Source of the DNA: Olivibacter domesticus
GTDB taxonomy: Bacteria > Bacteroidota > Bacteroidia > Sphingobacteriales > Sphingobacteriaceae
Length of the DNA: 64,000 bases
NCBI RefSeq assembly: GCF_900109575.1
Contig: NZ_FOAF01000001.1
Span: 558,001 to 622,000, forward strand
Direction: 5' to 3'
Shown here: positions 38,474-39,601 of the stretch, piece by piece
How the letters are laid out: the number at the start of each line of letters is the position of its first letter
Numbering within the stretch: the stretch's first letter is position 1
Position numbers and translations under genes: made by a program
Notes under the pieces: model-generated
The model's input: only the letters and a program-made list of their open reading frames with translations
The model's database searches: none
Told to the model about the DNA's origin: nothing

Positions 38474-38526
38474 AGTGTTAATAAAAGAAAAATTTAATGT
38501 AGAAATGTTTTCAATTAGCCCTAAAC

Positions 38527-38560
38527 AAAAAAAGGCCTCAACCGGGGAGATTGAGGACCT
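38527..38560 (-). terminator. Rho-independent terminator of the candidate small RNA
   Basis: Minus-strand stem AGGTCCTCAA (38560-38551) pairs with TTGAGGCCT (38541-38533) with one bulged base, loop of nine, followed by an uninterrupted T tract (38533-38527). Confidence 0.75.
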
Positions 38561-38589
38561 TTACTAACCAATTATAAACCTAAATTATG
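38527..38589 (-). ncRNA. Candidate small RNA or transcription attenuator (~63 nt)
   Basis: Inferred from a promoter and terminator in register on the minus strand: start about 38589, end at a hairpin with seven T residues. The region has no open frame of note. It ends about 77 bp before the response-regulator start, so it could be a free small RNA or a leader whose terminator is sometimes read through into the regulator-kinase genes. Plus-strand text here resembles a typical Bacteroidota 5' leader (AAACCTAAATTATG) but leads to a 5-codon frame only. Confidence 0.45.
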
Positions 38590-38595
38590 ATAGAA

Positions 38596-38626
38596 CAAAG
38601 ATAAGTTGATTTACCTGGATTTCCAA
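38596..38626 (-). promoter_or_regulatory. Promoter of the candidate small RNA
   Basis: The best-formed Bacteroidota promoter in the window: -33 TTG at 38626-38624, a 20-bp spacer, and -7 TATCTTTG at 38603-38596, followed by T. Both elements and the spacing fit the consensus. Confidence 0.6.
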
Positions 38627-38648: not shown

Positions 38649-38791
38649 GTGTTTATTGTTTTTTACGCTTAAATACAGCTTGTTATGTCTTTTTACTGAT
38701 AATATTTTGACCGAATTTAATAAGTTCTATGACCCTGTAGCTGATCAGATTCAATTGTCACGGTATAGAAGTAACCAAGTTACCTATTTTA

Positions 38792-38846
38792 ATAGGGACT
38801 TTATAGGGAGATAACAGGGACATAACAGGGAGATTATAGGGATATA
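38792..38846 (+). repeat. Five tandem 11-bp iteron-like repeats
   Basis: Units ATAGGGACTTT, ATAGGGAGATA, ACAGGGACATA, ACAGGGAGATT, ATAGGGATATA, each exactly 11 bp with core AGGGA, so the cores sit on one face of the helix. They are located 120-174 bp before the DUF6266 start and partly overlap the palindrome that follows. Confidence 0.92.
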
Positions 38847-38869
38847 TCCTTGTAATCTCCCTGTTATGT
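38820..38869. repeat. 50-bp near-perfect palindrome
   Basis: Symmetric around 38844.5: 38820-38836 is the exact reverse complement of 38853-38869 (17 bp) and the inner 16 bases also pair, with only two non-Watson-Crick positions (both G-T). As RNA it would be a 25-bp stem with essentially no loop beyond the minimum. The right arm contains inverted copies of the 11-bp unit in the same 11-bp phase. Confidence 0.92.
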
Positions 38870-38965
38870 TCGATTGATTATTTATTAAATATTCTGTTAG
38901 ATATAAAAACTTTACTGACTTTTTGTTAAATTCGTTTCATTATAAACCTATTATTCAAACAAGAA

Positions 38966-39601
38966 ATGGCAATCAATAGAAACGGAGCAAATGGCACCTT
39001 TAAAGGCAAAGTAGGAAGTGTTATTGGGTATGAATGGCGTGGAATACCTGTGATAAGAGGACTTCCCAAAAAAAGAACAAAAAAACCTTCAGATAAAGAA
39101 CTAAGTAACCGTGAGCGCATGCGTATTACGCAAGTTTTTCTTCAGAAGATTAAAAATTTTATTCGTTTGGGTTTTGCCGAGGATGCCAGAATAAAAAACA
39201 TCTCTGCCTTTAATGCGGCCATCAGCTATAATAAAAAGTATGCTATAGCAGGTGAATATCCTGAACTTACTTTAAATTACAGCGCAGTGTTAGTAGCTAA
39301 GGGGAATCTCCTTCCTCCACAGCATCCATTTGTAAAACTTATTGATGATAAACTAATTTTTAGTTGGAAACGTCATATAAACTGCAAGAGACAACGTGTG
39401 ATGTTGCTGGTTTTTGACGAACATAATACATATGGGCATATGATCTTGGGCGGTGCTTCTCATGACGAGGAGCAAGAAGTAATTTCAATTGAAGGCGAGG
39501 ACCTTTCATCAGGAACTGTTTTACATAGCTATATAGCCTTCATATCCGATATGCACGATGCGATATCTGATAGCGTATATTGTGGATCGCTTAAAGTGTA
39601 A
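38966..39601 (+). CDS. DUF6266 family protein
   Basis: A 211-aa Bacteroidota-specific family of unknown function. The N-terminus MAINRNGANGTFKGKVGSVIGYEWRGIPVIRGLPKK carries the family's Gly-rich GKVGSVIGYEWRG pattern; the first 110 residues are basic, the second half (about 125-205) looks like a small beta-sandwich (LIFSWKRHINCKRQRVMLLVFDEHN...GTVLHSYIAFISD). No signal peptide is seen. It ends 18 bp before hemF. The remarkable repeat-palindrome upstream is its only visible regulatory context. Confidence 0.85.
   Translation: MAINRNGANGTFKGKVGSVIGYEWRGIPVIRGLPKKRTKKPSDKELSNRERMRITQVFLQKIKNFIRLGFAEDARIKNISAFNAAISYNKKYAIAGEYPELTLNYSAVLVAKGNLLPPQHPFVKLIDDKLIFSWKRHINCKRQRVMLLVFDEHNTYGHMILGGASHDEEQEVISIEGEDLSSGTVLHSYIAFISDMHDAISDSVYCGSLKV

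Follow-up and report, generated by a model that had tools for sequence, protein, structure and literature searches.

The window is a stretch of 64,000 nucleotides of the Olivibacter domesticus genome (6.78 Mb), on a chromosomal contig of 2.47 Mb. The locus studied here contains a DUF6266 gene with a product of 211 aa (38966-39601, plus strand), with genes for an OmpR-type response regulator and a coproporphyrinogen oxidase as its neighbours. The family assignment of the preliminary description was confirmed, as the product matched PF19781 with an E value of 5e-26 and 91.8 bits (gathering cut-off 23.4) over model positions 3-198 of 198, and DUF6266 was the sole Pfam match of the protein. The structure predicted for it (mean pLDDT 90) comprises a basic N-terminal arm modelled as a low-confidence tail, a beta-hairpin, a helical part and a C-terminal FnIII domain. 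The best PDB matches of the model were FnIII domains, the sole confident similarity, and no classical DNA-binding domain was recognized in the predicted fold. Residues 1-60 of DUF6266 proteins bear a mean net charge of +8.4, which is positive in 185/185 proteins examined. DUF6266 was not found in viral contigs. The genome G295, a single contig of 7.6 Mb, has 35 matches to DUF6266, many of them within longer reading frames of 270-415 aa, which suggests a lineage-specific expansion and fusion.

Upstream of the gene, sequence and repeat analysis delimited a direct array of five 11-bp units (38790-38844, plus strand; TAATAGGGACT, TTATAGGGAGA, TAACAGGGACA, TAACAGGGAGA and TTATAGGGATA). The AGGGA cores of these units begin at 38794, 38805, 38816, 38827 and 38838, exactly 11 bp apart, and the last one ends at 38842. 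The units had been described as exact copies; this is true of the core and of the spacing, but the whole units are identical at only 8-10 of 11 positions in pairwise comparison. The five-core pattern was absent from every shuffle of the window; in the window itself, 4 pairs of AGGGA cores at 11-bp distance were observed versus 0.10 expected. The preliminary description also placed the cores on one helix face; since 11 bp is near but not identical to the B-DNA repeat, their position in fact shifts gradually around the helix from unit to unit.

The array merges into a palindrome of 25+25 bp without spacer (38820-38869), 92% complementary, which was found by inverted-repeat analysis and RNA folding and whose inverted units are indeed in phase, as first reported. 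Its left arm consists of the last two direct units and its right arm of inverted units, which were read from the sequence on the minus strand (38847-38873); their cores, which keep to the 11-bp phase of the direct array, are TCCTT at 38847, TCCCT at 38858, 11 bp further, and TTCGA at 38869, a degenerate copy. The 96 bp between the end of the palindrome and the gene start (38870-38965, plus strand) presumably contain the promoter of the DUF6266 gene. The -7 box consensus in Bacteroidota is TAnnTTTG (PMC6847099), and imperfect matches to it at 38865 (TATGTTCG) and 38927 (TAAATTCG) provide a candidate promoter.

When folded as RNA, the palindrome reaches -42.5 kcal/mol (z -8.2). Such a stable fold favors an element working as RNA, in which the transcribed palindrome would form a hairpin acting as attenuator, terminator or small RNA, and the joint alteration of inverted arms and direct units in sister loci is also in line with it. 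However, the direct units that lie beyond the pairing arm, three in the window and up to eleven elsewhere, stay in 11-bp phase, and most other arrays have dyads weaker than that of the window (scores of 5-9 for many, versus 18.2). Moreover, the element matched no Rfam family at gathering score, and no terminator was predicted at it. We thus regard a role as RNA as improbable. A few weak microRNA-type Rfam matches were discarded as chance hits driven by the hairpin. The window also holds, at 38525-38600 on the minus strand, a separate element of 76 bp that comprises a T-run and a hairpin of the terminator type (38556-38536). This sequence has about 17 more copies in the genome (77-100% identity), occupies the same position in three congeners and has no match in Rfam; it may belong to a small-RNA family or be a shared terminator or leader.

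The window element is one instance of a general rule in Sphingobacteriaceae, namely that 11-bp arrays precede most DUF6266 head genes. Loci were gathered without regard to repeats (61 from named genomes, plus a genus set), head genes were recognized by their N-terminal motif, and tandem periods were scored within 400 bp upstream. The best period was 11 in 42/60 head genes of the first set and in 55/71 when the genus set was included. A period-11 score of at least 10 was reached in 40/71 head-gene upstream regions versus 1/1,420 Markov shuffles, while the same analysis gave 2/59 for downstream flanks and 13/169 for the upstream regions of other ORFs. DUF6266 copies standing second in an operon are mostly devoid of arrays, with period 11 being the best in 4/19. 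The rule was predicted in advance for a held-out set, in which period 11 was the best in 38/64 head genes and the score was at least 10 in 37/64. Over all sets, 115/189 head loci carry an array at the threshold used, some of these loci coming from genomes chosen for AGGGA arrays, and about 40% of head genes are without one; in a minority of loci the period is 10 in place of 11. In 1.2 Mb of the window's genome, only three period-11 arrays scored at least 16, and two of these immediately precede DUF6266 genes. Tandem repeats of 7 bp (heptads) are also common in the same 1.2 Mb (L144-L203): 10 segments had scores of 18 or more, versus three for period 11.

These data strongly uphold the link between array and DUF6266 proposed in the preliminary description. 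Its condition for rejection, with arrays missing from other DUF6266 genes and the region not conserved in close relatives, was contradicted by the results. They do not extend the link to the AGGGA word: 11-bp arrays are general upstream of DUF6266 genes, but the core is particular to each DUF6266 subfamily, and a search restricted to AGGGA therefore misses most of them. Conservation in close relatives points in the same direction, as the congener G063 keeps both the DUF6266 gene and a three-unit AGGGAC array at the window locus. In another congener, G015, the array is absent and a decayed DUF6266 remnant without ATG is found; here the array was lost together with the decaying gene. G052 and G037 show no array at this locus, and no DUF6266 gene by tblastn or Pfam.

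Two layouts were distinguished. In the window-like one (class II), the array lies roughly 80-170 bp ahead of the start codon, and n direct units are followed by the dyad and by inverted units in phase. The -7 box was present downstream of 7/64 window-like arrays versus 2.7 expected (shuffle maximum 8), and with so weak an enrichment, the idea of an invariant promoter box following the dyad was not retained. The other layout combines a distal array, 200-350 bp upstream, with a second, proximal array whose words are for example CGGTCAA or CGGACAA, near a conserved TATGTTTG and TACCGGTA leader. Further along its operon there is often another DUF6266 gene, together with genes for DUF5675, CHAP endolysin-like proteins or small lipoproteins, and the whole resembles a chromosomal cassette for lysis or release. 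Cassettes of this kind were seen at L063, L066, L075, L079, L095, L098, L067, L080 and L084, and several loci of this layout have an HTH_17-like gene and a LytTR-type regulator upstream.

The repeated word differs among paralogs. Within the window's genome, the cores found before DUF6266 genes are AGGGA, TTCGGAC, TTCAGTTA, AAAGGACAGCT and ATCCGCTTCAC. TTCGGAC is common to orthologs in three Olivibacter species, TTCAGTG is kept in five species, and the cross-species core groups were TTCAGTG, TTCGGTG, ATCGTA and TATAGGGA. Between orthologs the word shifts over the whole array (TTAGGG to TTAGGT, ACGGTAA to ACGATAA), and in two sister species the change from TTAGGGTTTAG to TTAGGTTTTAG affects all units. 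Such a pattern bears on a purely structural explanation, by which phased motifs would bend DNA with no specific reader and the repeats would stem from 11-bp duplications. The constancy of the period, 10 or 11, while the letters differ among loci is what one could expect from it. Nevertheless, bending alone requires neither the joint change of the word in sister species nor the inverted recurrence at the dyad, and these features, together with the use of one word per array, make this explanation very doubtful.

The cores also track the DUF6266 subfamily across genera. Core similarity grows with protein identity, with a Mantel r of 0.38 in the training set (permutation maximum 0.09) and a value of 0.245 in the held-out set (null maximum 0.14); part of this correlation would be expected simply from promoter and gene being inherited together. 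In the training data, core similarity was seemingly tied to residues 73-96 of DUF6266 (61 and 48 non-redundant proteins). This hint was put down as a prediction before new loci were collected, but the held-out set did not bear it out (0.01 and -0.02), and the proposal of a specificity-reading segment at these residues was withdrawn; thus, no reading segment is established in DUF6266. His82 accompanied a CGGA core in 5/7 training cases and 1/1 held-out case, Phe82 was also found with CGGA, and the link between His82 and CGGA is unproven.

Arrays also occur away from DUF6266. Scans requiring three exact units, which leads to an undercount, detected AGGGA arrays in 16/301 genomes of the family and TTCGGA arrays in 15/301, many of them solitary: about half of the TTCGGA arrays found by pattern and most AGGGA arrays have no DUF6266 neighbour. 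The idea that the element travels with DUF6266 as a unit is therefore sound for the association, but not for these numerous solitary copies. Among 121 genomes tested for DUF6266, the array genomes were positive in 11/11 cases versus 60/121 overall (P 0.0003; genome samples share phylogeny and P values are approximate), and the remaining AGGGA genomes had DUF6266 in 10/10. Solitary and DUF6266-linked arrays of the same core shared a genome 3 times versus 0.27 expected for TTCGGA (P 0.0014) and 2 times versus 0.22 expected for AGGGA (P 0.016), in comparisons which are incomplete and cover part of the DUF6266 loci per genome.

For example, the window's genome contains a solitary TTCGGAC array (L380, G000:C19:15153), about 270 bp before the gene for a probable secreted protein, which is nearly the same as the DUF6266-linked array L366 (C6) and shares even its AAAAGCGAATAA tail. 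The solitary AGGGA arrays L002 and L004 of this genome match the window array, and G159 has eight solitary arrays with the unusual unit AAAGGGAAGTG, which is the word of the array of one of its own DUF6266 genes. These eight arrays are located on the 4.3-Mb chromosome G159:C1 at 616345 (minus), 956824, 1606820, 1704526 and 2470649 (plus), and 3074341, 3538342 and 3932153 (minus); their orientation falls in two blocks, as if replichore-polarised, and an inverted tail was not obvious in any of the five inspected. Such co-occurrence of the same core within a genome fits a trans-acting reader with paralog-specific taste. A search for DUF6266 relics beside solitary arrays gave nothing convincing, and gene loss thus does not explain these arrays.

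Since same-core copies occur at several places of a genome, a dispersed mobile or miniature repeat landing before genes by chance was also considered. However, the array copies in the window's genome resemble one another only over array and palindrome, some 50-80 bp, with no shared ends beyond. Cores are locus-specific, and solitary arrays are found at matching places in several species (L035/L036/L049, L038/L047 and L028/L052). Of all the explanations weighed here, we give this one the smallest chance.

The main rival is that the array is an operator for transcription factors of another family, unlinked to it, whose regulon would just have DUF6266 genes as its commonest target. This would agree with solitary arrays preceding other genes, several of which encode secreted proteins, and with a predicted DUF6266 fold in which no DNA-binding domain is recognisable. 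Also, G207 and G231 carry solitary AGGGAC/TTCGGAT arrays, and that core was at none of their DUF6266 loci read. On the other hand, with at least 5 different cores before the DUF6266 paralogs of one genome, equally many dedicated factors would be needed. No conserved regulator gene was seen by eye beside class II loci, and the association of cores with DUF6266 subfamily across genera speaks against an unlinked factor as well. This explanation seems unlikely to us, with perhaps one chance in a few.

We consider that the element is quite probably a cis-regulatory array bound by protein; the multi-site protein binding suggested in the preliminary description is still the best reading of the sequence. 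That it is more precisely a multi-site operator, with an oligomerising and paralog-specific reader, most simply DUF6266 itself, has in our opinion about an even chance. An oligomerising, sequence-specific protein would bind side by side, one copy per 11-bp unit, first over the direct units and then, mirrored over the dyad, over the inverted units beside the promoter, and the bound array would control transcription of the DUF6266 gene. The DUF6266 product would in this way autoregulate its own promoter and, in some genomes, also a few promoters with the same word. The repeated word would be a code specific to each DUF6266 subfamily, for which the simplest reader is the DUF6266 product of the same locus; DUF6266 alone is a constant partner of the arrays. 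We infer protein binding, autoregulation and the role of DUF6266 as reader from these patterns, and as the correlation at residues 73-96 failed in the held-out set, the identity of the reader is put forward tentatively, with a likelihood somewhat short of even.

Literature searches on DUF6266, on 11-bp repeats in Bacteroidetes and on palindromic tandem repeats in Sphingobacteriaceae returned nothing relevant. The array upstream of DUF6266 is without description in the literature searched, and DUF6266 is without known function. If DUF6266 is the reader, a widespread family of unknown function would become DNA-binding regulators, and dozens of natural protein/site pairs would be available for solving the recognition code. 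We hypothesize, with still more reserve, that DUF6266 could be a new DNA-binding class made of a basic arm, a helical part and an FnIII domain, whose paralogs with distinct 11-bp codes would act as insulated, self-recognising switches in parallel. If the reader is another protein, the arrays would be a handle for finding it, and DUF6266, which stands beside endolysin-like genes in some operons, would be the main target of an unknown network.

Several known systems share part of these features. In Rep/oriV iterons, direct repeats in phase are accompanied by a partial inverted copy close to the promoter of the initiator gene, and Rep regulates its own synthesis. The window array likewise has phased direct repeats with inverted copies near a gene, but it is without a nearby initiator gene or a plasmid match, and there are many arrays per chromosome. 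A replication or plasmid-type element, as evoked in the preliminary description, is thus not supported, as no initiator or partition gene adjoins the array and the element matched 0 of the 72,556 plasmids searched. In helically phased multi-site operators of bacteria, several protein-binding sites beside a promoter face roughly the same side of the helix. A known regulator, however, has one motif per regulon, whereas each paralogous DUF6266 locus has its own. The type II partition system ParMRC resembles our arrays in that its ParR/parC repeats, direct and of 10-11 bp, lie upstream of the operon that they serve, as the five 11-bp units of the window do. Unlike them, the window array is chromosomal, has no adjacent ParM or other filament gene and adjoins no ribbon-helix-helix protein, the linked protein being DUF6266 with its FnIII domain. 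For ParR of R1, two 11-bp repeats are the minimum, the repeats of pB171 measure 10 bp, and inverted repeats are present too in some parC sites; there are many diverged ParR/parC families side by side, in which a given ParR recognizes its own repeats and no others (PMC9426499). ParR/parC is the nearest counterpart of the DUF6266 arrays in its logic, rather than a family to which they could be assigned.
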